Assembly: GCF_001602375.1 (NCBI RefSeq)
Contig: NZ_BCNY01000015.1
Location: 434,001 to 498,000, forward strand
DNA length: 64,000 nt
Direction of reading: 5' to 3'
Source: Methanoculleus horonobensis
GTDB lineage: Archaea; Halobacteriota; Methanomicrobia; Methanomicrobiales; Methanoculleaceae
The notes under the pieces were generated by a model. The model had not been told where the DNA came from. It was given only the letters and a program-made list of their open reading frames with translations, and did no database searches. A program made the position numbers and the translations under genes. Positions 4,303 to 64,000 of this stretch are shown piece after piece; within the stretch, counting starts at the first letter, position 1, and every line of letters starts with the position of its first letter.

Positions 4303-4971
4303 ATGTCGGATACCACCTGGCTGCAGCGTGCAGCATCGGCCCTTACGGCGTTCCGGGAGAGCGACCGCCCGGTCGTCTCGCTCGCCCGCGACCTCCTCTG
4401 GGTCGCCGCGGTCGTGGGGGGTATCGCCCTCGCCCTCTTCCTCTTCTCCGGAACCTGGCCGGCAGTGGTCACGATCGAGTCGGAGAGCATGGTTCCGAAC
4501 ATGAACGTCGGCGACCTGGTGCTCGTCGTCGACGAGGACCGGTTCGGCAGCCTGACGACCTGGGCCGAGGGACAACGAACCGGGCACGCGTCCTTCGGGA
4601 ACTACGGTGACGTGATCGTCTATCGGCCGAACGGTGCCGACTCCGTCCACCCTATCATCCATCGCGCGATGACCCACGTCGATACCGCCGCCGTGGTTGA
4701 GTCGGGGCTCGGGGCCTACTACGCCGACCCGCACGGTGGCTACATCACCAAAGGCGACAACAACCCCTATACCGACCAGCCGAACCTCCGGATCGGGGGT
4801 GTCGGAGTGATCGAGCCGGTGGAGAAGGAGTGGATCGTCGGCAAAGCCCTCTTCGCGGTGCCGCTCGTCGGCTACCTGCCCCTGCACCTCGTTGAGTTCG
4901 CCGTCGTCGTCATTCTGGTCATCCTCATCCACGACTTCGTCCTTGCGCGCAAAAAAGAGAAAGACGAATAA
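4303..4971 (+). CDS. Signal peptidase I, archaeal/ER type
   Basis: 222 residues with a membrane segment near residues 27-50 and another near 190-212. The catalytic Ser lies in ESESMVPNM, a His in PIIHRA, and an Asp in TKGDNN, which is the Ser-His-Asp arrangement of archaeal and ER (S26B) signal peptidases. It removes signal peptides from exported proteins, of which this window encodes many. The C-terminus is a short charged tail (KKEKDE). It is co-directional with cofH 28 bp downstream. Confidence 0.93.
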   Translation: MSDTTWLQRAASALTAFRESDRPVVSLARDLLWVAAVVGGIALALFLFSGTWPAVVTIESESMVPNMNVGDLVLVVDEDRFGSLTTWAEGQRTGHASFGNYGDVIVYRPNGADSVHPIIHRAMTHVDTAAVVESGLGAYYADPHGGYITKGDNNPYTDQPNLRIGGVGVIEPVEKEWIVGKALFAVPLVGYLPLHLVEFAVVVILVILIHDFVLARKKEKDE

Positions 4972-4999: not shown

Positions 5000-6079
5000 A
5001 TGCCCAACTCGCTGCATACCCTGCTCGACGATACGCTTGCCGGCCACCGGCTCACGGAGGAGGAGGCCGTCACGCTCCTCTCGACGCGCGGCCGGGACGT
5101 CTGGGCGATTGCCGCCGCCGCAGACGAGCTCCGCGAGCGCAAAGTCGGTGATACCGTCACCTATGTCCGGAACCAGAACATCCACGTCACCAACATCTGC
5201 AAGAACCTCTGCGGGTTCGGGCGGCGGGCGGACGATCCGGAGGCATTCTACGACGATATCGATGCGATCCGGGAGAAGGCCCGGACGGCAGCGACACGGA
5301 ACGTCACCGAGATCTGCCTCCTCTCCGGCGTCCACCCGGACTATACCCTCGACTCCTACGTCGACCTCATCTCCTGCGTGCGGGAGGAGGCCCCCGGCAC
5401 GGATATCCATACGGCAAGCCCCGACGAGATCGCCTGGGCCGCGAAACAGAGCGGCGTCTCGACGAAGGAGGCGATCGAACGCCTGCGTGACGCGGGGCTC
5501 GGAACCGTGCAGGGGACCGCGGCCGAGATCCTGGTCGACGACGTCCGTCGCGTGATCTGCCCGAGCAAGTGCGATACGACAACCTGGGTTCGGATCATCA
5601 AGGAGGCGCACCGTATCGGCCTCCGCTCGACGGCGACGATCATGTACGGCTCCTCTGAGAGCGAGGCGGATCGCGCCCGGCATCTTAGCGTCCTCCGCGA
5701 GATCCAGGATGAGACCCGCGGGTTCACCGAACTGGTTCCCCTCTCCTTCCTCCACGAGAACACCGCCCTTTACCGGAACGGTCTCGCGCCCGCGGGAGCC
5801 ACCGGCAGAGAAGATCTCCTCCTCTTTGCGGTCTCCCGTCTCTTCCTCGACAACTTCGACCACATCCAGATCTCCTGGGGCAAGGTCGGGACGAAGATGG
5901 CAGAGCTCGGGCTTCTCGCGGGCGGCGACGACCTCGGCGGGACGATGTTCTGCGACGACGTCAGCACGGATGCCGGCGGCGAGGGCGCCGACTACCTCGA
6001 TCCGGCGGAGATGCGGCGGATCGCCGAAGATCTCGGCCGGACGCTCCGCCAGCGGACGACGACCTACGAGCTGGTATAA
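5000..6079 (+). CDS. CofH-like protein with broken radical-SAM cysteine motif
   Basis: 359 residues, strongly similar over its full length to the neighbour at 6385-7485, which is a CofH subunit of FO synthase (coenzyme F420 chromophore, 4-hydroxybenzyl transfer from tyrosine). The neighbour has the radical-SAM CX3CX2C motif as CVNACGFC. Here it reads CKNLCGFG, so the third cluster cysteine is missing. The cause is visible: the neighbour has two tandem copies of TGCGGGTTC (6604-6621), and this gene has only one (5210-5218). A 9-bp slippage deletion kept the frame but should prevent normal [4Fe-4S] assembly. The rest of the frame is well preserved, so the protein may be inactive or have a different role. 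The start at 5000 aligns with the paralog. Confidence 0.85.
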   Translation: MPNSLHTLLDDTLAGHRLTEEEAVTLLSTRGRDVWAIAAAADELRERKVGDTVTYVRNQNIHVTNICKNLCGFGRRADDPEAFYDDIDAIREKARTAATRNVTEICLLSGVHPDYTLDSYVDLISCVREEAPGTDIHTASPDEIAWAAKQSGVSTKEAIERLRDAGLGTVQGTAAEILVDDVRRVICPSKCDTTTWVRIIKEAHRIGLRSTATIMYGSSESEADRARHLSVLREIQDETRGFTELVPLSFLHENTALYRNGLAPAGATGREDLLLFAVSRLFLDNFDHIQISWGKVGTKMAELGLLAGGDDLGGTMFCDDVSTDAGGEGADYLDPAEMRRIAEDLGRTLRQRTTTYELV

Positions 6080-6098: not shown

Positions 6099-6395
6099 TC
6101 ACATCCGGTTCAGCGCCTCCCTCCCCGGCATCCCGATCTCGACGCGGCGCTGCACGGCGGGGAGGTTCGCCGCCTTCACCTCGGCGTCCATCAGGGAATC
6201 GAGGTCATCGAGGGTCGACTCTTCCGAGGCGCCGACGATCGCCGCAGGAACTCCGGCGTTCGCGAGCGCCTCGATATCTCATCCCATCGTCCGGGAACCG
6301 ATACGTGTATGCACCACCACCGGGCGCGCCCGAAGGTTCTTGTCCTGACCGGGCCAGATCAACGTATCCCATACGGGGGGACGGATGAGGTGCAT
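6099..6395 (-). pseudogene. Possible remnant of an unidentified gene between the cofH copies
   Basis: On the reverse strand one frame runs from an ATG at 6395 to a stop at 6099, broken by a single TGA at 6279-6281. It reads WDTLIWPGQDKNLRARPVVV before the stop and DIEALANAGVPAAIVGASEE to VEIGMPGREALNRM after it. The composition looks protein-like, and the segment fills the gap between the two cofH genes. I do not recognise the family. It overlaps the first codons of the second cofH by 11 bp. It could also be chance reading in GC-rich DNA. Confidence 0.35.
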
Positions 6396-7485
6396 GACGC
6401 CGCCGCTATCAGAGGTTCTTGACGACGTGCTTGCCGGTCACCGGCTCACGGAGGAGGAGGCCGTCCGTCTCCTCTCGACCCGCGGCCGGGACGTCCTCGC
6501 CATCGCCGCCGCCGCGGACGAACTCCGCGAGCGAAGAGTCGGTGATATCGTCACCTATGTCCGGAACCAGAACATCAACGTCACCAACATCTGCGTGAAC
6601 GCCTGCGGGTTCTGCGGGTTCTCGCGCAAGCCTGGCGACGCCGATGCCTTCTTTTACGGCGAGGCCGCGGTGCGGGAGAAGGCGCGGGCGGCACGCGAGC
6701 GCGGCGTCACCGAGGTCTGCACGGTGAGCGGGCTCCACCCGGAGTTCGACGCCCGGTCATACGCCGATATCTACTCCTGGATACGGGACGAGGCGCCGGG
6801 CGTCCACATCCACGCGAGCAACCCGATGGAGGTGGCGTATGCCGCAGAAAAGAGCGGCATCTCCACCCGGGAAGTCCTCGGGATGATGAGGGACGCGGGT
6901 CTCGCCACCCTCTGCGGGACGGCGGCCGAGATCCTGGTGGACAGCGTCCGTGCCGTGATCTGCCCCGACAAGATCGACACGGCGACCTGGGCGCGGATCA
7001 TCAGGGAGGCGCACGGTCTCGGGATCCGGTCGACGGCGACGATCATGTACGGCCACTCCGAGAACGAGGCGGATCGCGCCCGGCATCTTGGCGTCCTCCG
7101 CGAGATCCAGGACGAGACTCACGGGTTCACGGAGTTCGTACCCCTCTCGTTCATCCACAGAAACACCCCCCTCTACCGGGCGGGGCAGGCCCGGCCCGGA
7201 GCGGCCGGGAGAGAAGACCTCCTGATGCTTGCGGTCGCCCGACTCTTCCTCGACAACTTCGATCACATCCAGGCCTCATGGGTGAAGGTCGGGACGAAGA
7301 TGGCGCAGATGGGGCTTCTTTCGGGCGCGGACGACCTTGGAGGGACACTCTTTGAAGAGAGTATATCCCGGGAGGCGGGCGCCCGGGATACCGACTACCT
7401 GGATCCGGCCGAGATGCAGCGGATGGCCGGGGATCTCGGCCGGGTACTCCGGCAGCGGACGACGACCTATACCCGTCTTGGCTGA
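6385..7485 (+). CDS. cofH: FO synthase subunit CofH
   Basis: 366 residues. It is the radical-SAM enzyme that joins the hydroxybenzyl group of tyrosine to 5-amino-6-ribitylaminouracil in the first FO step; CofG, not in this window, completes the deazaflavin. The motif CVNACGFCGFS supplies the three cluster cysteines. TVSGLHPEF, HIHASNPMEV and QASWVKVGTKMAQMGL are typical of CofH. It duplicates the gene at 5000 but has the intact motif, so it is probably the working copy. GGGGGGACGG precedes the ATG at 6385; an in-frame ATG at 6394 behind GAGGTG is also possible. Confidence 0.93.
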   Translation: MRCMTPPLSEVLDDVLAGHRLTEEEAVRLLSTRGRDVLAIAAAADELRERRVGDIVTYVRNQNINVTNICVNACGFCGFSRKPGDADAFFYGEAAVREKARAARERGVTEVCTVSGLHPEFDARSYADIYSWIRDEAPGVHIHASNPMEVAYAAEKSGISTREVLGMMRDAGLATLCGTAAEILVDSVRAVICPDKIDTATWARIIREAHGLGIRSTATIMYGHSENEADRARHLGVLREIQDETHGFTEFVPLSFIHRNTPLYRAGQARPGAAGREDLLMLAVARLFLDNFDHIQASWVKVGTKMAQMGLLSGADDLGGTLFEESISREAGARDTDYLDPAEMQRMAGDLGRVLRQRTTTYTRLG

Positions 7486-34465: not shown

Positions 34466-35056
34466 TTATGGACGGTGTGCCGCACTCCGCTGCCAGGCGA
34501 GGACGAGGAGCAGGATGCCGAGGAGCCCGAGCCCGGCGTAGACGTAAGCCGCTCCGGCGAACTCGTAGAGCGAGGGCGAGTGGACTCTGACGGTCTCCGG
34601 GAGCGCCGGAGCGAGGAAGAGGCCGTATGCCCGGACCAGGCCGAAAAGGCTGATGACCCCCGCTTCGATCACCCCGAACCATGCCGTCGATCCCCTCTCA
34701 AGCGACAGCGCCCCGAGCAGGATCAGGACCCCTGGGGCAAGGAGGACGGTCGCGAGCTGGCCGGGCCCGGATGACCCGGGCAGCGGCCCGAAGACGGCGA
34801 GGGCGAGGAGGAGCACCGCGAGGGGCACTGCCGCCCACCACCTGCCGCCTTCTTCCCGCACTGCTGCGGCAAAGAGCACCGCTCCCGCAAGGGAGAGGAT
34901 ACAGAAGAGGAGGAGCGCCGGCGAGACCTCTGCGACCCGGTGATCGAACTGGCCGTTGTAGACGAACCGGGCATACGCGCCGGTCACGGGAACGGCGAGG
35001 AAGTAGGCCGCGGTGAGGGCGAGTGCGATCGAGGTCTTCTCGGGCGCCGTTCTCAT
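34466..35056 (-). CDS. Hypothetical membrane protein, box-A operon
   Basis: 196 residues with five or six hydrophobic segments (IALALTAAYFLAVPVTGAYA; LLLFCILSLAGAVLFAAA; VPLAVLLLALAVFGPL and others). I do not recognise a family. The ATG at 35056 overlaps the stop of the upstream gene (35053), so both are probably made from the promoter box at 35674. Confidence 0.75.
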   Translation of the reverse strand: MRTAPEKTSIALALTAAYFLAVPVTGAYARFVYNGQFDHRVAEVSPALLLFCILSLAGAVLFAAAVREEGGRWWAAVPLAVLLLALAVFGPLPGSSGPGQLATVLLAPGVLILLGALSLERGSTAWFGVIEAGVISLFGLVRAYGLFLAPALPETVRVHSPSLYEFAGAAYVYAGLGLLGILLLVLAWQRSAAHRP

Positions 35057-35604
35057 CCCTCCTCCTCGGCGTGCCCCTCTCCCTGCAACCGCGGGGCGGG
35101 GGCGGCGGTCAGGCGGATGGCGGCGTAGAGCAGGGTTGCGGCGAGCACGCACTCGAGGTAGAACCCGAAGCCCGTGAACGCGGAGAAAAGCAGGTTATAC
35201 GCGGGGGTGCCCGCGGTGAGGGGCAGGGCGCTCATGATCCCGTCGAAGAGCCACCCGAATACCGGCACCCTGTCCGCGATCAGGGGAGCAGGCCCGCCCG
35301 GCCACCCGTCGGGATTTATCAGCAGGGCGGCGACGAACGGAACCGAGGCTGCAACGGCAACGAGCGTCGCCTGCCGCTCTCTCCTGACCGGGACGGCGCC
35401 CGAGATGAGCGGGAGCGGTGTCGCGGCCCCCGCGACCGCAAGGGTGACCATCACGAGAACGAAGACGGGGAGAACCTGTTGCGGCGTCCCGGAGATGCAC
35501 ACGGTGATATCCGCCCAGACGATGCATGCAGCGACCGCGACGAGCGGGGGGATGGTCGACGAGAACCGGCTCCGGGGAAGAGGGGCGACGATCTTACCTG
35601 ACAT
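35053..35604 (-). CDS. Hypothetical membrane protein, first gene behind box A
   Basis: 183 residues with four or five membrane segments (VAVAACIVWADITVCI; VLPVFVLVMVTLAVAGAA; TLVAVAASVPFVAALLI) and a charged C-terminus. The family is not recognised. It is transcribed from the conserved 47-bp promoter box at 35674-35720, about 70 bp upstream. Confidence 0.75.
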   Translation of the reverse strand: MSGKIVAPLPRSRFSSTIPPLVAVAACIVWADITVCISGTPQQVLPVFVLVMVTLAVAGAATPLPLISGAVPVRRERQATLVAVAASVPFVAALLINPDGWPGGPAPLIADRVPVFGWLFDGIMSALPLTAGTPAYNLLFSAFTGFGFYLECVLAATLLYAAIRLTAAPAPRLQGEGHAEEEG

Positions 35605-41746: not shown

Positions 41747-41767
41747 AGTTAGGTAAATGCGAACTAA
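41747..41767 (+). promoter_or_regulatory. Second MarR-type operator, before lon
   Basis: AGTTAGGTAAATGCGAACTAA matches the marR operator in its AGTTAGGT and AACTAA parts, with the same spacing. It lies in the 54-bp marR-lon gap, 17 bp before the lon start. Confidence 0.65.
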
Positions 41768-41783
41768 ACAATCCGGAGTCACC

Positions 41784-44165
<2,382 letters not shown>

Positions 44166-54665: not shown

Positions 54666-55598
54666 CTAGAGCATCACCGTCGCGATCAGCGGAATCGTAA
54701 CGAGCGACCCGATCGTCGAGACGAAGACGATCTGCGACGCGAGCCGGGAGTCGGCGCCGTACTGCTCCGCGAAGATGACGGTGTTTGCGGCGGCGGGCAT
54801 CGCGGCCATCGTGATCATGATCCCGTTGATATAGGGATCGGGAAAGACCGGGGCGAGGAGGTAGCAGTAGGCCGCCGGGATGGCGAGGAGGAGGATGGCG
54901 CTCGCCGCCCAGATCCGCCAGTTCCCGACCATCTCCCGGGCCGGGAAGGTGGCGAGCATCGCCCCGACGATGATCATCGCGAGCGGCGTCGTCACCCCCC
55001 CGAGGAGTTCGATCGAGTCGATGAAGGGCGACGGGATCTCCACCGAGCCGAGGAAGAGGGCGAACCCGACGATGGAGGCCGCGATCCCTGGGTTTAAGAG
55101 GAGTTTTGGGTCGAACCCCTTCCCTCTCCCCTCGGTCAGCATCGCGATCCCGACCGAGAAGACCAGGACGTTGAAGATGAGGTTGAAGATCGCGACGTAA
55201 AAGAGCGACTCCTCTCCAAAAAGTGTCAGGGCGACCGGGAACCCCATGAACCCCACGTTCCCGAAGACGATCGCGAACTGGAGCACCCCTTCCTCCGCGG
55301 CCGGGACCCGCATGGCCTTCGAGACCACCCAGGCGAGGGCGAACGAGAAGACGTAAAGCGCCCCGGTCGCGAGGATCAGGGTCTCTGCGCCGATGAGGCG
55401 CTCGGGGGTGAAGGGCACCTGCATCGAGGCGACGATCAGCGCCGGGATGGTGATGTTGACGAGGAGCCCCGAGAGCCCCCGGGTTGCCCGGGGGTCGACG
55501 ATCTTCGTCGCGACGGCGACGTAGCCCGCGGCGATCAGGAGGACCAGGATGAAGATCTGGTCTGCAACTATCAGGAAATCCGTGACCGCACCGTTCAT
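54666..55598 (-). CDS. AEC-family (auxin efflux carrier-like) transporter
   Basis: 310 residues with ten membrane segments. NITIPALIVASMQVPF, FGNVGFMGFPVALTLFG, TPLAMIIVGAMLA and MPAAANTVIFAEQY are AEC motifs. The substrate is probably an organic acid or amino acid. A decayed copy lies at 60842-61205. Upstream, around 55750-55775, is a 21-bp match to the regulator gene that accompanies the decayed copy. Confidence 0.9.
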   Translation of the reverse strand: MNGAVTDFLIVADQIFILVLLIAAGYVAVATKIVDPRATRGLSGLLVNITIPALIVASMQVPFTPERLIGAETLILATGALYVFSFALAWVVSKAMRVPAAEEGVLQFAIVFGNVGFMGFPVALTLFGEESLFYVAIFNLIFNVLVFSVGIAMLTEGRGKGFDPKLLLNPGIAASIVGFALFLGSVEIPSPFIDSIELLGGVTTPLAMIIVGAMLATFPAREMVGNWRIWAASAILLLAIPAAYCYLLAPVFPDPYINGIMITMAAMPAAANTVIFAEQYGADSRLASQIVFVSTIGSLVTIPLIATVML

Positions 55599-55838
55599 AT
55601 GGGCACCGCTCCGTCCGGTTCATCAAGGTGAGTGCCGGTACCCCTTTACGGTTCTGCTCGGGGGTGTGGGGTGCAGTGAGCGAGCGGGAGCCTGCCTGGG
55701 TTTTAGAGCGGGGTTTTTCGGGATCGCGGCGTGTTCCTCGCACAGAGGGCGCCTCGCCCGCGTAGAGGAAGGGTGAGGCTGTTCGGGACTGTGAAGTGTC
55801 GGCGGGTCTTGCCTTCAAGGGCCGGGATCATTATCCCA
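55599..55838. other. Intergenic region with a possible regulator fragment
   Basis: No gene is visible. GCGCCTCGCCCGCGTAGAGGA near 55751-55771 is shared exactly (one base longer than shown in either flank) with the regulator gene at 61206-61679, where it encodes LLLYAGEALLG on the reverse strand. Confidence 0.4.
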
Positions 55839-56160
55839 CCATAAGAAGGTTTATGATGTGTTCGGTTCCAGCCGAACGATGACTGCCGATTTTATATGTT
55901 ATAACGACCCAGAATCGCGTTGGGTGCCGCGTGCGGTACCCGTTTGTGTGCGGGGGTCTCCCATCCCCGGTTGACGCCCCGGATGACGCGCCCCGCAAGC
56001 CCGGAGGCAAAGGGAACGTAAGCGTTCTGCGTGCTTAAATATGTGCCTTTTCTGCCTCCGGAAAACTACAGGAGGAAAGTAAATGAACGGAAAAACCGGA
56101 TTGCAGGCATTTCCCATGCTCCTGGCGCTGCTGCTGGTGAGCGTGGTTATGGTGCCCGCA
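55839..56160 (+). repeat. Duplicated promoter-leader-signal peptide module, copy 1
   Basis: Nearly the same sequence recurs at 58671-58992. It covers CCATAAGAAGGTTTATGATG, the inverted repeat GTTCGG-TTCCAG-CCGAAC (55860-55877), a TATA (TTTTATATG near 55890), a leader and the first codons of a secreted protein. After the signal peptide the two genes differ. Confidence 0.85.
55918..56082 (+). ncRNA. Candidate structured 5' leader RNA, copy 1
   Basis: The predicted leader from about 25 nt after the TATA to the ATG at 56083. Visible helices: GGGTGCCGC/GCGGTACCC (55922-55941), an alternative CCCG/CGGG, CCGGAGGCA (56001-56009) with TGCCTCCGG (56053-56061), and an inner hairpin GAACG-TAAG-CGTTC (56014-56027). 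GGAGGA follows the closing helix. The copy at 58749 keeps the helices with changed bases. It could be a riboswitch-like or RNA-binding-protein element; nothing identifies a ligand. Confidence 0.5.
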
Positions 56161-56826
56161 AGCGCATACTATTATTGTTGTGCAGAATGGGTGAACAACT
56201 ATCCCCCACCATCCGACTTGGAGCACAATGATGAAAACGCACAGGGGTTTTACTACCAGCTCGGTGGTGACTCATCCTGGTGGGGAGACTTTATCTATGG
56301 CGATGGTCAGGCCCTGGAAAGACACTGGAAAGATCCCAGTAAGTCCGGAAACGGTATAGACTATATTTACACAGATGATACACATTTTGCGTTCTTTTCG
56401 GGCCATGGTGCCCCAGAAGGATTTGCATTTTCCTCCTCCCAAGACGATACCTTCCTGAGTTACAGTGATGCTCTCTGGGGAAACACGCAGATGGACTGGA
56501 TTACCATTGATGCCTGCACTGTTCTGCGCGAGAATAGCCATACAAATTGGTACAATGCATTTGGCGGCCTACACTCGATGACCGGGTTCCATACTGAATG
56601 TCACGATGTCTCGGACAGAGGCTCTAACTTCGTACACCGGATGGTCGGTACGTGGACCACCCAACCGATCATCACGGCATGGTTCATTGCAGCGAAGGAT
56701 ACAGAGCCTTCGACCACGTATGCGGCAGCCCTTGCCCGAGAAGGCTGCTGGTCCGATTATGTCTACGGGCACGGGAGCCAGGGGACACCCGGAACGTCGT
56801 TCCTGTACGGTACGTACCAGTGTTGA
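56083..56826 (+). CDS. Secreted clan CD (caspase/gingipain-like) peptidase-like protein
   Basis: 247 residues. The signal peptide (GLQAFPMLLALLLVSVVMVP then ASA) is nearly the same as that of the 58915 protein. The mature part, rich in Trp and Tyr, has HFAFFSGHGAPEGF and later WITIDACTVLRE. A GHG histidine followed by a DAC cysteine after a hydrophobic strand is the dyad pattern of clan CD cysteine peptidases, but this may instead be a related non-peptidase family. The gene is less GC-rich than its surroundings. A PepSY-like gene follows after 9 bp. Confidence 0.65.
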   Translation: MNGKTGLQAFPMLLALLLVSVVMVPASAYYYCCAEWVNNYPPPSDLEHNDENAQGFYYQLGGDSSWWGDFIYGDGQALERHWKDPSKSGNGIDYIYTDDTHFAFFSGHGAPEGFAFSSSQDDTFLSYSDALWGNTQMDWITIDACTVLRENSHTNWYNAFGGLHSMTGFHTECHDVSDRGSNFVHRMVGTWTTQPIITAWFIAAKDTEPSTTYAAALAREGCWSDYVYGHGSQGTPGTSFLYGTYQC

Positions 56827-56835
56827 GGTGATCAC

Positions 56836-57798
56836 ATGAACATGAAACTAATTGGAGTTAGTGCCGGTGTCCTGGCGCTTCTTGGAGTCATCTGCGTTGT
56901 CAGCATACCCGTGTTTTTCAGCGACAGTCATACACCTGACTGTGGTCAATCCAACCAGATAGGTGGCGTGAAATCGGCGGGTGCTGCAAACCTCACCTAC
57001 ACCGCCTCTGTTCCGTTCCCGCCGACGCCTGCGGAGGTTATCCTGTATCGGGTGCTGGAGCCGGAGATCACGACGGAACTTGTCTCATCGATGGCGGAGA
57101 AGATAGGCCTGAAGGGAACGGTGCGCGAATCGTACGACCAGATGCTGCTCTCCGATGAACCCCACTCGTTGGAGGTTCATATGAAGTCGGGGAGAGTCGC
57201 TCTGATTGATATCCCCCGTTGGATGAACCCGAACGACAAAGACCTGCCGGAAAGCCTTCCTTCGGACGATGAGGCGATCCAGATCGCAACACAGTACCTG
57301 GAGGAGACCGGGCTGATGCCCCCCGATGCAATCCTGTGTGGCGTTGCCCACCCCCAAATCGTTGAGTATAACGAGGATGGTGAGGTGATCGGTATCGCCT
57401 TTGAAGACGTCCAGGTCTCTTACTCCCGCACAATCGACGGTCGGCCGGTTGTGGGTTCGAAATTGACGGCTGAGATCGGCGGCGGCGGGGATATCCTGAA
57501 TGTTTACAAACTCTGGAGAGACTATGCCCCGGAGAAGGAGATAGCAGTCATAACGCCACAGGAAGCTTTTGAAGAATTGAAGGCGACTGGGCTGGCGGTC
57601 GACGGAAAAGGCCCGACCGCGGTTATCACCGGGATCGAACTTGGGTATTATGAAGCACCGGCGATGGATGAGCCTACCTACCTCGTCCCGGTCTACATCT
57701 TCAGGGGCGAGGTGCGGGATGAGACCGGGGGAACCGCATTCGTCAGATACATCCCCGCGTCCCCCGACCTTGGGGAGGGTATCCCGGCGGTAAAGTGA
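56836..57798 (+). CDS. Membrane-anchored PepSY/YycI-like protein
   Basis: 320 residues. A signal/anchor helix (LIGVSAGVLALLGVICVVSIPVFF) precedes an outside region with two PepSY-like units. IQIATQYLEETGLMPPDAIL and VQVSYSRTIDGRPVVGSKLT resemble the YycH/YycI-type fold, and the end YLVPVYIFRGEVRDETGGT is typical. PepSY domains often inhibit or chaperone secreted peptidases, which fits its position after the clan CD-like gene. Confidence 0.7.
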   Translation: MNMKLIGVSAGVLALLGVICVVSIPVFFSDSHTPDCGQSNQIGGVKSAGAANLTYTASVPFPPTPAEVILYRVLEPEITTELVSSMAEKIGLKGTVRESYDQMLLSDEPHSLEVHMKSGRVALIDIPRWMNPNDKDLPESLPSDDEAIQIATQYLEETGLMPPDAILCGVAHPQIVEYNEDGEVIGIAFEDVQVSYSRTIDGRPVVGSKLTAEIGGGGDILNVYKLWRDYAPEKEIAVITPQEAFEELKATGLAVDGKGPTAVITGIELGYYEAPAMDEPTYLVPVYIFRGEVRDETGGTAFVRYIPASPDLGEGIPAVK

Positions 57799-57836
57799 CC
57801 GCCCCAGGTTCCTCTTCTTTTTCGGAGCGAAATTCT

Positions 57837-58412
57837 ATGAAGAAGATTCTGTACCTCGTCATCACCTGTGCCGCCGCGGGCATGCTGGTCCTGGTTGGAA
57901 TACATATACTCCCGAACCCGGATCTGCAAGGGCCGGGTGAGATACCGACGGAGGTTCCGGAGAACCGAACACCCCGCCCGACAGGCGTTCCCCGGGAGAA
58001 TACATCGTTTATCGAGATTCATCATGCAGGAGACCCGGGCGTTATCCTCTATCCAGGAGATCCCGGGTATCCTGCCATCGAAGCAGAGTGCCGCGAGCAG
58101 ATCCGGAGCACCTGTGGTCAGTATAAGATGGGGTTCTCGCGGGTTGAGCTGGACGCCATGAAACAAAACGACACCTATGTCGCGATGCATCTCCCTGCTC
58201 CCACGAGATTCGAGACGGGTTATATCGTCGATGGGTCGCCGAAGGAGATCCTTGCAGACGAAGCGGTCTTCTTTCTGGATTTCGAGGACTGGCCGGAGAA
58301 CATAATCATCATGCGACTGGGAGATGTTTGCGGGGTCTGGGACGCTTCGCGCGACCGGGAAAAACTTCGGGTTCTGGCTGATCCGTTTTTGGTCGGTCGG
58401 GCCGCGTCCTGA
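57837..58412 (+). CDS. Membrane-anchored hypothetical protein
   Basis: 191 residues with one N-terminal helix (ILYLVITCAAAGMLVLVGIHI), a Pro-rich spacer and a soluble domain. CREQIRSTCGQY could hold a disulfide. The family is unrecognised. The ATG at 57837 follows CGGAGCG; a GTG at 57795 overlapping the previous stop is possible. It is probably last in the operon starting at 56083. Confidence 0.72.
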   Translation: MKKILYLVITCAAAGMLVLVGIHILPNPDLQGPGEIPTEVPENRTPRPTGVPRENTSFIEIHHAGDPGVILYPGDPGYPAIEAECREQIRSTCGQYKMGFSRVELDAMKQNDTYVAMHLPAPTRFETGYIVDGSPKEILADEAVFFLDFEDWPENIIIMRLGDVCGVWDASRDREKLRVLADPFLVGRAAS

Positions 58413-58670
58413 CAGGCGTAGACGGTCAGTGGTATATATTTGCATTTCGTCTGTTCAAAACAGACCCGTCCAATCGGCAGAATACGATCAACGCCTCCGC
58501 GCCGGCAACCGGGATGTATGAGGGGAATAGTTTTCGGCGGTCTTTGCCGGGAACAACTGCGACGGTGCCCGGTTCCGTGGGGGGAGGTTCGACGAGCGTG
58601 GCAGGGCCGTGACCATTATCCCGGCGCCCGACGGCGGGTCCTGTCTCCAGGGGCAGGAATTATTGTCCTG
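58413..58670. other. Intergenic region with a hairpin
   Basis: No gene is visible. GTCTGTT-CAA-AACAGAC (58449-58465) is a perfect 7-bp stem and may end the upstream operon. The last 30 bp resemble the sequence before repeat copy 1. Confidence 0.45.
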
Positions 58671-58992
58671 CCATAAGAAGGTTTATGATGTGTTCGGTTC
58701 CAGCCGAACGATGACTGCTGATTTTATATGTTCTAACGACCCAGAATCGCATCGAGTGCCGCATGCGGTACCCGCTTGTGTGCGGGGGCACCCATCCCCG
58801 GTTGACGCCCCGAATGACACGCCCCGCAAGCCCGGAGGCAATGGAAGTGTATGCACTTCCTGCACTTGAAGGTATGCTCTTCCCGCCTCCGGGGAAAAAC
58901 CGGAGGAAAAACAGATGAACGGAAAAATTGGACTGCGGGCATTCTCCACACTCCTGGCGATAATGCTGGTGAGTGTGGTGATGGTGCCGGCG
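58671..58992 (+). repeat. Duplicated promoter-leader-signal peptide module, copy 2
   Basis: Second copy of the 55839 module, including CCATAAGAAGG, the inverted repeat GTTCGG-TTCCAG-CCGAAC (58692-58709), the TATA near 58722, the leader and the signal-peptide codons MNGKIGLRAF. Confidence 0.85.
58749..58914 (+). ncRNA. Candidate structured 5' leader RNA, copy 2
   Basis: Leader of the 58915 gene. Closing helix CCCGGAGGC (58831-58839) with GCCTCCGGG (58885-58893). Inner hairpin GGAAGTG-TATG-CACTTCC (58843-58860) replaces the GAACG-TAAG-CGTTC of copy 1 with a different sequence but the same shape. CCCGC-N6-GCGGG replaces the G-U-closed CCCGT/GCGGG of copy 1. CGGAGGA follows before the ATG. Confidence 0.5.
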
Positions 58993-59919
58993 ATGGCAAT
59001 GGATGCCGGGGCACTCGATATTGAGAAGCTGGACATCGTGGATCCTGCAACACTTCAGGAACGATCTCCCTCGTTCATCAGCGAACTCCGAAGCAAAGGA
59101 TGTTCCGAAGAAGAGATTGCCGAGGCAATCCGTAGCCTGCCGCGAGTTTCATACCTTGACGGATGGACAGAGGCTGATGACGAACGGGTATCGCCCCTTT
59201 TGCAACAGGCAAGGGATGAGGTGAACTATTCGATGTACGGCGAGATAGATCCTCTGACAGAGGATGGCGTTTCGGCAGTAAAGATGTGTTCTTCAGGCAT
59301 CTGGCTGTTTGACACAGTTTTTCAGGGTGTTAATGGATGGGTACATCCCGGACTGATGGAATGCTCCTCGGATGGCACCAGACGCCAGTTTCTTACGACC
59401 CATCTTGGAAAAAAGATCGGTACGACCGCTAACTGGATCGAGATAGGTATAGAGTCAGTCTGCGATGATCCGAATCCGGCTCGCTACCATGTTTTCACCT
59501 ATGATAACAACAACATATCACGACCGATGGTTGTGCATAGTAACCTTACCAACGGCGACAGGGATTACAATTTCGAGATCTACGTAAGTGACGTGCAGTA
59601 CCCGGAGGGCTATCCCTATATGATCTTATGGGAAGGACAGGTCGTCCGGGTCGGTCACGTTCCGTTTGCGGAAGGCGATCTGAACGAGGTACACGAATAC
59701 GTCAGAAACGATCCCGGATCATTCTCCGATGTATCAACCTCCTATGTGTGTGATTCCTACGTCTATTACGACGGATATGGTGTATGGTGGAACGAGCAGC
59801 TGGATGCACAGTTAGCACACCCGACACAGCTCCATGCAGATACGCAGGAAGGTGTTTATGGCGATTTCTACAGACCATGGTGGTCGAATGCATACAGAAT
59901 CGACACGTGGATCGCGTGA
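58915..59919 (+). CDS. Secreted protein sharing the duplicated leader
   Basis: 334 residues. The signal peptide (GLRAFSTLLAIMLVSVVMVP then AMA) nearly copies that of the 56083 protein. The mature protein is acidic and rich in aromatic residues and Asp (SVCDDPNPARYHVFTYDNNN; GYPYMILWEGQVVRVGHVPF). I see no catalytic motif; the last part (YDGYGVWWNEQLDAQLA) may be a beta-sandwich. It is followed by an overlapping lipoprotein gene. Confidence 0.75.
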   Translation: MNGKIGLRAFSTLLAIMLVSVVMVPAMAMDAGALDIEKLDIVDPATLQERSPSFISELRSKGCSEEEIAEAIRSLPRVSYLDGWTEADDERVSPLLQQARDEVNYSMYGEIDPLTEDGVSAVKMCSSGIWLFDTVFQGVNGWVHPGLMECSSDGTRRQFLTTHLGKKIGTTANWIEIGIESVCDDPNPARYHVFTYDNNNISRPMVVHSNLTNGDRDYNFEIYVSDVQYPEGYPYMILWEGQVVRVGHVPFAEGDLNEVHEYVRNDPGSFSDVSTSYVCDSYVYYDGYGVWWNEQLDAQLAHPTQLHADTQEGVYGDFYRPWWSNAYRIDTWIA

Positions 59920-60313
59920 ACAAAGAAGAATAGGGTTGATGGTAATCATCTCAGTCCTCCTTTTTTGTTGTACGGGTTGCGTTGAAGAGCAACCGGTGAA
60001 TCAATCGAAATATATCAATATTTCACTTACAGAACCCATCTCTCAAGCAGATGCGGTCATCGTTGCCCTTTCCTATCCGGGAGTTGCTAAAACAATTGAG
60101 AATGATTCGTTCCGGATCACCATCGGAAAGCTCACCGTCTCTGACGTACGTGAGGGAAGGCTTAAAGAACACCATATGGTCTACATCGATCGCTTCAATA
60201 GCACTACGCACGAACCGCTCGAAGGTTTACAGGTTATTGTGACCTACGACGGGGACGTTTACAAAATCTGGCGGTCGTTCCCTCCAGTTAATTCTTCAAT
60301 TGCTGCAGAGTGA
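59888..60313 (+). CDS. Lipoprotein with PepSY-like domain
   Basis: 141 residues from an ATG that overlaps the end of the previous gene by 32 bp. GLMVIISVLLFCCTGC is a lipoprotein signal (lipobox CTGC). The remainder (SQADAVIVALSYPGVAKTI ... LQVIVTYDGDVYKIWRSFP) resembles one PepSY unit. It repeats the arrangement secreted protein + PepSY-like partner seen at 56083/56836. Confidence 0.7.
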   Translation: MHTESTRGSREQRRIGLMVIISVLLFCCTGCVEEQPVNQSKYINISLTEPISQADAVIVALSYPGVAKTIENDSFRITIGKLTVSDVREGRLKEHHMVYIDRFNSTTHEPLEGLQVIVTYDGDVYKIWRSFPPVNSSIAAE

Positions 60314-60338
60314 ACAGCCTCTGCAGGACCTGGTATAG

Positions 60339-60679
60339 ATGCCAGCCCCGGAGCCCACCCCGGCAAAAGAGCCCGGGCGGGCCGGGAACCTGACTGTCAT
60401 CCGGGCAACCGGGGATTCGAAACCCCCGCAGGCCGTCCCGATCCTCTCGTCGTGGAGGGATATCGGACCGGAGATATGTGAGCCGACCGAAGAAGATTGG
60501 GCTTTTGTCAAAGATGCCGCAACGGATCTGTCGGAAGAAGAGAAGACCCGGTTTGTTACAGAGGTCAGAAAGATACCTGCGGGGAATCGACACTGCCCCC
60601 GGAGGAGCAGGTCGATCTGGAGAGGGGACTTGGGTACTACCTGATTAAGGCAACCGAGGGAGTAGAGACAGCCCTTTAA
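60339..60679 (+). pseudogene. Frameshifted small gene
   Basis: The first frame reads IRATGDSKPPQAVPILSSWR to VRKIPAG, then loses sense. From about 60580 another frame continues ESTLPPEEQVDLERGLGYYL to VETAL and stops at 60679. Together they make one coherent protein of about 110 residues. The single shift suggests a broken gene or a sequencing error. The family is unrecognised. Confidence 0.5.
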
Positions 60680-60841
60680 CTGCTGAACGATCCAGCCGTA
60701 TCTGTAGTATTACTATGCCGGCGATCAGGTCCTGGCGTACCGATCGGCAGATCCCCCTTCCTGTGTGTTCCCGGGGTTATCGAGTTCTTCGTAGTTAAAC
60801 CAGGGATGGTCGGTGATCGGGTTGCGTCCCCTCCTGCCCTA

Positions 60842-61205
60842 CAGTAGCACCGTCGTCATCAGCGGAACCGTAACAGACGACCCGTTCGTCGAGACAAAGA
60901 CGATCTGAGAGGTATGCCGGGCGTCGGCAAAGACCCGGGTGAGGAGGGGGGCGACACTTGCCGCGCAGATCCGCCAGTTGTCGACCATCTCCCACGCCAG
61001 GAATGTTACGTGCATCGTCCCGACGATGATCATCGCAAATGGTGTGGTTACCCGGCTGAGGGGGTCGACCGCATCGATGGATGGGGCTCGTGCTCTCCAC
61101 CGAGCCGACGGAGGCGCGATCCCGATCGAAAAACGGGGAGGTTGAAGGTGGCGACGTAGAAGGGGAAGTCGTCGCCGAAGAGCGGCTGTGCGGACAGGAA
61201 AGAAA
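60842..61205 (-). pseudogene. Decayed AEC-family transporter
   Basis: On the reverse strand, pieces in shifting frames match the intact transporter at 54666. PLFGDDFPFYVATFNL, then TTPFAMIIVGTMHVTFLAWE, then MVDNWRICAAS and SQIVFVSTNGSSVTVPL are visible. The first half is missing and about 45 residues near the C-terminus are deleted. It lies directly downstream of the regulator at 61679. Confidence 0.75.
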
Positions 61206-61679
61206 CTACGCCGGTATAGGGGCGGTTCTCCGCCGGCACCGCAACGCGATGTACCAGAGCACAAATGTCACGCCGAGGAGCGCCTCGCCCGCGTAGAGGA
61301 GGAGGGGTTCCCTGACGACGCTCCCCCCCTGGACGACAAAACCGCGGAGATACGAGGTCACGCAGAGCACCCCGGCAGTCATGGCAACCAGGGATGTGCC
61401 GAGGAGGAAGATGATCCGGTGGTCTCTCCCGGGATGAAGGATCCGCCGCCCCTTCTCCGTCAGGGTGTAGTCCCGCCATTTCCGGGCGTTCTCGTGGGCC
61501 ACGAGATCCGCATCGGCCAGAACGGCAAGGTGTTCGTGGACAGTCGACTTTGCAAGACCGAGCCCGTCGGCGAGCTCGCTCATCGCCATGGGCCGGATAT
61601 CGAGCGCTTTGAGGATAGCGACCCGGACGTCGGAGGATAGCGCAGCGATATCGCCCCGGTCGAGCGTGACTTCTTCCAT
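61206..61679 (-). CDS. Winged-helix regulator with membrane tail
   Basis: 157 residues. An ArsR/MarR-like domain (VRVAILKALDIRPMAMSELADG then LGLAKSTVHEHLAVLADADL) is followed by two membrane segments (IIFLLGTSLVAMTAGVLCVTSY and LLLYAGEALLGVTFVLWYIAL). It probably regulated the transporter now decayed next to it. The ATG at 61679 gives the expected start. Confidence 0.8.
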   Translation of the reverse strand: MEEVTLDRGDIAALSSDVRVAILKALDIRPMAMSELADGLGLAKSTVHEHLAVLADADLVAHENARKWRDYTLTEKGRRILHPGRDHRIIFLLGTSLVAMTAGVLCVTSYLRGFVVQGGSVVREPLLLYAGEALLGVTFVLWYIALRCRRRTAPIPA

Positions 61680-61798
61680 GATTTGAAATCTCTCCGATAT
61701 GGGTCTGGTCCGAAACAATCAGGTACTCCCCTGCCGGGAGAGAAAAGCGTTCCGGAACTGTCCCGGTACTGCCGAAAAAGAGGATGCGCCGATCTCCG

Positions 61799-62614
61799 TC
61801 ATTCCGCCCGGAGGGTCGGGGGTGGGACCGGTTCCGGTGCACCTATCCCTACTACGACGAACGTTGCCGATCCCCCCGGGAGGCGGTCCCTGTTGAGGTT
61901 GGGGTCCGGGGTAGAGCCGGGGTCGATCTCTTCTTTCCAGGGGGTGTTGGAACCCGGTATGGTGACGGTCGCCCGCCGGAAGTCGAAGTCGATCGGTGTG
62001 CCGTTCGGGGTCGTGAGGGTGTACGGGGCGGCAAGACCGATCGTCAGGGAGAGGACCTCCTCCGGGCCGGGCTGCGGGAGGTCCGCCATCACCCGCACCT
62101 CGCGCCACTCCCCGGCGGCGAGGTCGTCGACGGGCAGCGAGGTCGAGGCGCCGGGGAGGACATCCCCCTCCGGCGACCCGGTGGTGGTGTTCAGGCTCGC
62201 GGTTTCCGTCGTCACGGCAAGATCGGCCCGGGCGCAGTCTTCGCCCGCGAGGTTCCGGATGAAGAAGTCGAGGCTGATCCTGTCGCTCTCGATTGCGATA
62301 TCGGGAGTGTACCGGATATCCTCCGGGCGGGCCGGGTCGAGGCTGTAGCGATCCCCGAGGGAGATTGTCCGGTTCCAGGCGGTGGCGTTCTCGAGATGCC
62401 AGGTCTCGTTATCGGCGTCGTAGGTGATGATCGGGCTCTCACAGGGATCGGGATACTCGAACCCCGGCCCGAACGGCAGTATCCAGTTCACCCGCTTGAG
62501 CGGTTCCTGCACATGCTGCTGTCCCGGGGGAAAGGCGGTGAGTATGGCGAGGTTTACCGCAGCAAGGATGAGAACGGCGCCGATACCGAGCCATATCCAT
62601 GTCTTTGAGTGCAT
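61799..62614 (-). CDS. Membrane-anchored DUF1616-like exported protein
   Basis: 271 residues. One N-terminal helix (TWIWLGIGAVLILAAVNLAIL), then an outside region with NWILPFGPGFEYPDPCESPI and a beta-sandwich (LDFFIRNLAGEDCARADLAV ... VTIPGSNTPWKEEIDPGST). The pattern resembles archaeal DUF1616-type or CARDB-like surface proteins; not certain. It lies after the PepSY gene in the same direction and may share its transcript. Confidence 0.65.
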   Translation of the reverse strand: MHSKTWIWLGIGAVLILAAVNLAILTAFPPGQQHVQEPLKRVNWILPFGPGFEYPDPCESPIITYDADNETWHLENATAWNRTISLGDRYSLDPARPEDIRYTPDIAIESDRISLDFFIRNLAGEDCARADLAVTTETASLNTTTGSPEGDVLPGASTSLPVDDLAAGEWREVRVMADLPQPGPEEVLSLTIGLAAPYTLTTPNGTPIDFDFRRATVTIPGSNTPWKEEIDPGSTPDPNLNRDRLPGGSATFVVVGIGAPEPVPPPTLRAE

Positions 62615-62640
62615 TGTATCACATTAGGAAAAGAGGTGAT

Positions 62641-63417
62641 TTAGAGGTATGGACTCACCATCAGCACTTCTCCGGTCTGTGCGTCGATAACGACAAGCCC
62701 TCCCTGGAGAACGTGGTCCTCCGGCTCGCCACTCATCGTGATCACCCATGTCAGCGTCTGTACGTCCGGTCGGGTGTACTCGACGGAGAGGTCGGCCGTT
62801 GCACCGGTCACCCGGATTCCCGGGAACTGCCCGGCTACGATCTTCAGCGCCTCGTCCCGGGAAAGTTTTGGCTCAAGCGAACATTTGATCTCCCGCTGGA
62901 TCCCGATGTACGAGACGATCTCGCCGGTGCTCGGGTTAAGGTTCACGACGACCGTGTTCGGCGTGAGGACATCGCTGATCTCTTCTCTCCAGATGTACGA
63001 GTACTCGCTGCCCGCATCACCGTGAGAAACCAGGTCCGATCTGGTAAGCTGCATACTCTTCTTCGCAAAGCCGCTGTACTTCTCTTCGGCGTAGGCCCTT
63101 GCCGTTACTTCGGCTGCGGCCCGATCCAGCCGGACATCGCGGCAATCCTTCCGTGCGGAGTCGAACGTGGCACGTTCGATCACCCCGGTCCGGGCGTTGG
63201 CGTAAACCTGTCCGTCTCCGGTACCAAAGACATAGTACTCTCCCAGATTCAGGCGTTCAGTCTTCTGGTACTGGACGGTTGCGTCGGGTGCGTTAAGAAA
63301 GTCCTGTGCTTTTTCTTTTGCGGTATCCACCCCGATCGGGGCGTTGGCATCAGTTGCCGACACGATCGAGACCGCGACGACGAGGCATAGCATTGCAACA
63401 ATGTATATCCGTTTCAT
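62641..63417 (-). CDS. Secreted PepSY-domain protein
   Basis: 258 residues with a signal peptide (MLCLVVAVSIVSATDA). Two or three PepSY units carry GVDTAKEKAQDFLNAPDATV, VIERATFDSA, NLNPSTGEIVSYIGIQREIK, LSRDEALKIVAGQFPG and GGLVVIDAQTGEVLMV. Tandem PepSY domains are typical of propeptides and inhibitors of secreted peptidases. It follows the clan CD-like gene at 63433 by 15 bp, repeating the 56083/56836 arrangement. Confidence 0.85.
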   Translation of the reverse strand: MKRIYIVAMLCLVVAVSIVSATDANAPIGVDTAKEKAQDFLNAPDATVQYQKTERLNLGEYYVFGTGDGQVYANARTGVIERATFDSARKDCRDVRLDRAAAEVTARAYAEEKYSGFAKKSMQLTRSDLVSHGDAGSEYSYIWREEISDVLTPNTVVVNLNPSTGEIVSYIGIQREIKCSLEPKLSRDEALKIVAGQFPGIRVTGATADLSVEYTRPDVQTLTWVITMSGEPEDHVLQGGLVVIDAQTGEVLMVSPYL

Positions 63418-63432
63418 GATTGAATCACCTCA

Positions 63433-64000
63433 TTAATAGACTCCGTAGCGAGCGGGAGTGAGATAACTGTTGTAACTGCCGGAGATCTCGTAGGTGTCCA
63501 CTCCATGGTAACCGAACGGCCAGTGCAAGTAGCAGTCGTCCTTTGCATTGCTTGCGGCGCTTGCAACGGTCTCCCCGTTTCGCAACCGGTCCCAGAAGCT
63601 CCCGGACCAGCACTTTCCGTTTTCGACCTCGACCTCGCCGTCGAACCCCAGGCAGATGTCTGCACCTTTGTTCGTGACTGTCTCTAAGACCAGATCACCG
63701 TTGTAAGGGTTGTAGTGCGACGAATAGCAGGCGAGGTAGACTGCGAGCAGGACATCCCTGATATCGGTTCCGTAGTCAGTTATGTAGTACTGGTAGTTTC
63801 CCGGGTAGTGTCCGTCGGTCCTGGCAAGTATCCAGGATTCCGAGGCGAACTTTATTCCACCGCCTTTATGCGAGTCGTCGTAGTAGAGGCCATGGCCGTT
63901 GAAGAAGAATATCGCGTCCGACCTGAACTGATTGTACGCTGTCGATGCTACTGCATTCGTGGACGACGAGTTGTCGTAGCCCATTGCACCCTGATCGACC
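63433..64000 (-). CDS. Clan CD (caspase/gingipain-like) peptidase-like protein, 5' end missing
   Basis: At least 189 residues; the frame is open to the window edge, so the signal peptide and N-terminus lie outside. SDAIFFFNGHGLYYDDSHKG contains a GHG histidine and LLAVYLACYSSHYNPYNGDL a cysteine after a hydrophobic strand, the clan CD dyad pattern. ADICLGFDGEVEVENGKCW and FWDRLRNGETVASAASNAKD follow, similar to CHAT/C25-like proteins. It is paired with the PepSY gene downstream. The mature sequence differs from the 56083 protein outside the dyad. Confidence 0.7.
   Translation of the reverse strand, partial: VDQGAMGYDNSSSTNAVASTAYNQFRSDAIFFFNGHGLYYDDSHKGGGIKFASESWILARTDGHYPGNYQYYITDYGTDIRDVLLAVYLACYSSHYNPYNGDLVLETVTNKGADICLGFDGEVEVENGKCWSGSFWDRLRNGETVASAASNAKDDCYLHWPFGYHGVDTYEISGSYNSYLTPARYGVY

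Follow-up and report, generated by a model that had tools for sequence, protein, structure and literature searches.

CofH (TIGR03551; 5-amino-6-(D-ribitylamino)uracil--L-tyrosine 4-hydroxyphenyl transferase) is the radical-SAM half of FO synthase and couples tyrosine to a flavin precursor. Its role in the pathway, together with that of CofG, has been described previously (PMC6450877). The futalosine-pathway radical SAM enzymes MqnE and MqnC (6XI9/6XIG) have the same fold as the CofH-family protein considered here and belong to another pathway. Replacing one cysteine of the radical-SAM motif of PqqE by serine abolished SAM cleavage (PMC5715301). The nearest genetic precedent is the inactivation of a redundant paralog by a short direct-repeat deletion; a literature search on CofH paralogs of Methanoculleus and the Methanomicrobiales returned nothing relevant.

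The window (the whole 64-kb stretch of DNA that was analysed, from a methane-producing archaeon of the genus Methanoculleus) contains two CofH-family genes in tandem, cofH1 and cofH2, the first of which has lost nine bases in its cluster motif. With a probability of about 0.8, judged from sequence, we read this cofH1 as an ancient, redundant CofH paralog in which a loss-of-function mutation arose recently: its product most likely lacks catalytic activity, and CofH2 and CofG would sustain FO/F420 synthesis. The source genome holds a single copy of cofG, away from the cofH1/cofH2 locus. The features of the locus, in window coordinates, are:

4303 to 4971, forward strand: a putative signal-peptidase-like gene, which ends 28 bp upstream of cofH1 and is a conserved synteny marker
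5000 to 6079, forward strand: cofH1, the CofH-family radical SAM gene with the 9-bp deletion (359 aa, ATG at 5000)
5198 to 5227, forward strand: the damaged radical-SAM cluster motif, CKNLCGFGRR where orthologs have CKNLCGFCGFGRR
5210 to 5218, forward strand: the single remaining TGCGGGTTC unit, which marks the deletion site by sequence comparison
6102 to 6278, reverse strand: what is left of a DUF1805 (PF08827) gene, some 59 residues of its C-terminal part, recognised by comparison with congeners
6385 to 7485, forward strand: cofH2, the intact CofH paralog (NVTNICVNACGFCGF), starting at ATG 6385 or, in a shorter form, at 6394 (MTPPLSEVLDD)
6604 to 6621, forward strand: the intact tandem of two TGCGGGTTC units in cofH2, encoding CGFCGF, found by sequence search

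By profile, domains and phylogenetic placement, though not by its motif, cofH1 is a CofH gene. Its product matches TIGR03551 over residues 18-358 with 408.3 bits, above the curated cut-off of 374.1, carries the Radical_SAM (PF04055, 48.6 bits) and CofH_C Pfam domains, and sits in the gene order of its genus orthologs, to which it is about 80-93% identical. It differs from the family in that the third cluster cysteine, kept in the compared homologs, is missing, and in scoring some 12-14 bits lower than intact orthologs. Against PRK07360 it reaches 398 bits, short of the cut-off of 426, as do the intact orthologs (405-411), and it scores under the cut-offs for MqnE and MqnC. An alternative TTG start at 4892 was rejected as a spurious extension, since the orthologs likewise start with MPNSLHTLLDD. 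The neighbouring cofH2 exceeds both CofH cut-offs (470 bits for TIGR03551, 447 for PRK07360), has the same two domains, and in the alignment shows no departure from residues that are invariant in the genus.

The two genes represent separate and old lineages. A tree of 107 proteins groups every cofH1-type sequence (motif CKNxCxFCxFG) on the same side of a branch whose SH-aLRT support is 100; the window cofH1 lies within this clade, near the named close relatives M. chikugoensis, M. sediminis and Methanoculleus sp. MH98A, and the cofH2-type sequences lie closer to the outgroups (from a quick search with an uncertain root). The original prediction had called cofH1 a duplicate; if this is taken to mean a copy of recent date, it does not hold, the tree placing cofH1 and cofH2 as order-wide, well-separated paralogs. 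Some genomes of the order carry only the cofH1 type (G037, G042) and others only the cofH2 type (G038, G060, G045), a distribution that suggests that either paralog can serve. DNA identity between the window's two genes is uneven, ranging from 53 to 89% per 30-codon block with high values near codons 30-60 and 180-240, a pattern for which gene conversion or differences in constraint may be responsible.

cofH1 has one copy of the nonamer TGCGGGTTC, and cofH2 has two copies in tandem (6604-6612 and 6613-6621), exactly the counts and positions of the original prediction, which had compared cofH1 with its paralog. Here the comparison was made with cofH1 orthologs: where close relatives have ATCTGCAAGAACCTCTGCGGGTTCTGCGGGTTCGGGCGG, the window has ATCTGCAAGAACCTCTGCGGGTTCGGGCGG, so that exactly three residues, or 9 bp, are absent. 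We scanned the 232 genomes of the order with degenerate DNA patterns for the deleted and intact cofH1 motifs; the deleted form was found in the source genome only (1 of 232) and the intact form in 161. The proposed check against orthologs at the locus therefore leaves the deletion without a second carrier among the genomes scanned, and the window cofH1 is the sole member of the cofH1 clade found with it. Within the genus, where the comparison set comprised 34 other Methanoculleus species and the source species is represented by one genome, the intact motif is present in 32 of the 34, all with three motif cysteines; the remaining two (G003 and G006) lack cofH1. The fetched Methanoculleus cofH1 sequences that span the motif all read CKN(L/R)C(G/R)FCGFG, and the window alone reads CKNLCGFG. 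The observation is thus confirmed, and the gap is neither chance nor alignment noise.

Because its flanks are nearly identical to those of the closest relatives (28-30 of 30 bases shared 5' of it and 27-29 of 30 shared 3' of it) and because many cofH1 orthologs (18 of 57, most of the nearest relatives included) carry the exact 9-bp tandem, slippage loss of one unit is the simplest cause; such slippage at an ancestral direct repeat would suffice. The in-frame, slippage-type deletion that had been proposed thus gains support from the orthologs; one unit would have been lost recently in the lineage of this strain, probably by replication slippage. Gene conversion from cofH2 was ruled out as its source, both flanks being cofH1-specific and the cofH2 tandem intact. 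The locus resembles other cases of redundant-paralog inactivation by short direct-repeat deletion in the exact loss of one tandem unit, the adjoining intact copy and the apparent recency, and differs from them in that the deletion is in frame and falls at the catalytic motif.

The three residues lost are Cys3 of the CX3CX2C motif and the Gly-Phe that accompanies it. The alignment of homologs bears out the predicted loss of this cysteine: the three motif cysteines are invariant in the 19 other aligned homologs, and the motif of the window CofH1 (CKNLCGFG) retains only two. No substitute cysteine lies near the damaged motif in the cofH1 translation, which contains HVTNICKNLCGFGRRADDPEAF, leaving the three-cysteine ligation of the [4Fe-4S] cluster that characterises the PF04055 superfamily one ligand short. 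AlphaFold2 retains the barrel in the window CofH1 and in an intact ortholog alike; its confidence for residues 61-70 and 71-80 is 62 and 58 in the window protein versus 88 and 80 in the ortholog. The best Foldseek match of the window model is MqnE 6XIG (TM 0.86), and this match and the Pfam score both place the partial TIM-barrel domain in CofH1. The product would thus be expected to fold as usual around a site that lacks the normal cluster. Because the normal SAM-cleaving [4Fe-4S] cluster presumably cannot be held, CofH1 is most likely catalytically dead, and its activity is likely lost. As the deletion is in frame and at the catalytic motif, the gene scores above the cut-off of the CofH profile just as an intact one would. 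An allele that scores above the family cut-off despite a broken catalytic motif is a caution, and also a small natural experiment.

Selection on cofH1 was measured by pairwise dN/dS and by amino-acid relative-rate counts. Omega is 0.13-0.22 when the window cofH1 is paired with six close relatives, and among the intact copies themselves it is 0.10-0.22; the amino-acid relative rates of the window copy are only slightly raised. Outside the deletion, the window cofH1 differs at two positions that are otherwise invariant in the genus (A to T at alignment column 198 and A to S at column 283), a number that does not exceed that of several intact copies and is too small to demonstrate decay. Since the omega of the damaged copy equals that of the intact ones, the deletion is young relative to the divergence of the species. 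The normal omega is no proof that a new function is under selection, since too little time has passed for decay to become visible. The original prediction had noted the open frame and conserved gene body, which the 359-aa frame and normal omega uphold, and had offered two explanations. That of a recent event agrees with the unchanged omega and the lack of a second genome with the deletion. The dN/dS comparison that it proposed, run pairwise for cofH1, gave the damaged copy the same omega as intact copies and does not favour selection for another function: no altered selection is visible, as would be expected of a young deletion, the allele has no other carrier among the genomes scanned, and there are further signs of decay at the locus.

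One such sign lies between the two genes. In many congeners an intact DUF1805 gene of 104 aa lies there on the opposite strand (for example at L040 5100-5411). In the window a deletion of about 150 bp has removed its start codon and N-terminal half, and an in-frame TGA (6279-6281) immediately precedes the remnant. The N-terminus is also missing in the single-contig genome G020 (2,478,101 bases), which we take to be M. marisnigri JR1, and the gene is absent at the locus in G003, G006, G024 and G002. Immediately after the signal-peptidase-like gene, G003 and G006 each have a single cofH. Its 5' end resembles cofH1 (MPNSLHTLLDD or MSNSLHTLLDD), and the rest of it, cluster motif included, resembles cofH2:

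L075 4644-5729 and L076 4202-5281: single chimeric cofH genes in two Methanoculleus genomes, with a cofH1 5' end and a cofH2 remainder

Such chimeras are consistent with recombination between tandem paralogs. Because these two genomes, each 99% complete, are without cofH1, the gene appears dispensable in the genus, and the deletion and the chimera together suggest that it has been lost there by two different routes. The lesion in the window is absent from close relatives, as in a recent pseudogene, and its probable inactivating effect would make it the first step on the way to one, with intact CofH2 and CofG presumably carrying on FO/F420 synthesis. The case is a real yet rather ordinary onset of redundant-gene decay. 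An ancient CofH paralog pair in the Methanomicrobiales of which one is repeatedly lost could reveal whether the two are truly redundant.

A sequencing or assembly error, with the 9 bp present in the organism, is unlikely. The source genome (2,446,106 bases) is a draft in 15 contigs, tandem repeats are classic sites of collapse, and a second deletion, that in DUF1805, lies 1 kb away; against this, completeness is 99.85%, the whole array spans 18-20 bp, far below the usual read length, and the identical array in cofH2, 1.4 kb off, was assembled intact. The DUF1805 lesion is itself best seen as natural, because the same N-terminal loss occurs in single-contig G020. A survey of the conserved genes also rejected the idea that the whole window is ridden with indels: no other conserved gene in the 64 kb has a clear window-unique indel of such size, the further cases being one of a single residue (41757-44165) and one of 4-5 residues in a poorly conserved gene (35053-35604).

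The remaining alternatives accept the deletion and differ on what CofH1 now does. That a cluster-less CofH1 is retained in a non-catalytic role, supporting or regulating a partner such as CofH2 or CofG, would fit the open frame, conserved body and normal omega, but a young deletion accounts for the same facts, the deleted form occurs in no other species, the adjoining DUF1805 gene is broken too and other species have dropped cofH1 entirely; we regard it as quite improbable. Its bolder version, in which the paralog lost its SAM-cleaving cluster in a single event and now serves F420 biosynthesis as a non-catalytic partner or sensor, seems more doubtful still. Some Fe-S proteins have clusters with non-Cys ligands, and two of the three cysteines keep their CX3C spacing, so a functional cluster might be bound through water, Asp/Glu or a distant Cys with activity kept. 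We consider this the least probable of the alternatives: the three cysteines are invariant among the other aligned homologs, the loop is three residues shorter and locally poorly predicted by AlphaFold2, and loss of one cysteine abolishes SAM cleavage in PqqE (PMC5715301).

Elsewhere in the window, a 9.3-kb stretch (about 54666-63931) is 98.7% identical to G020 at the DNA level, and most of the proteins encoded in 56083-63390 are 99-100% identical to their G020 counterparts; outside this stretch, identity to G020 is about 86-95%. This pattern suggests that the stretch was recently exchanged between species, by transfer or recombination.
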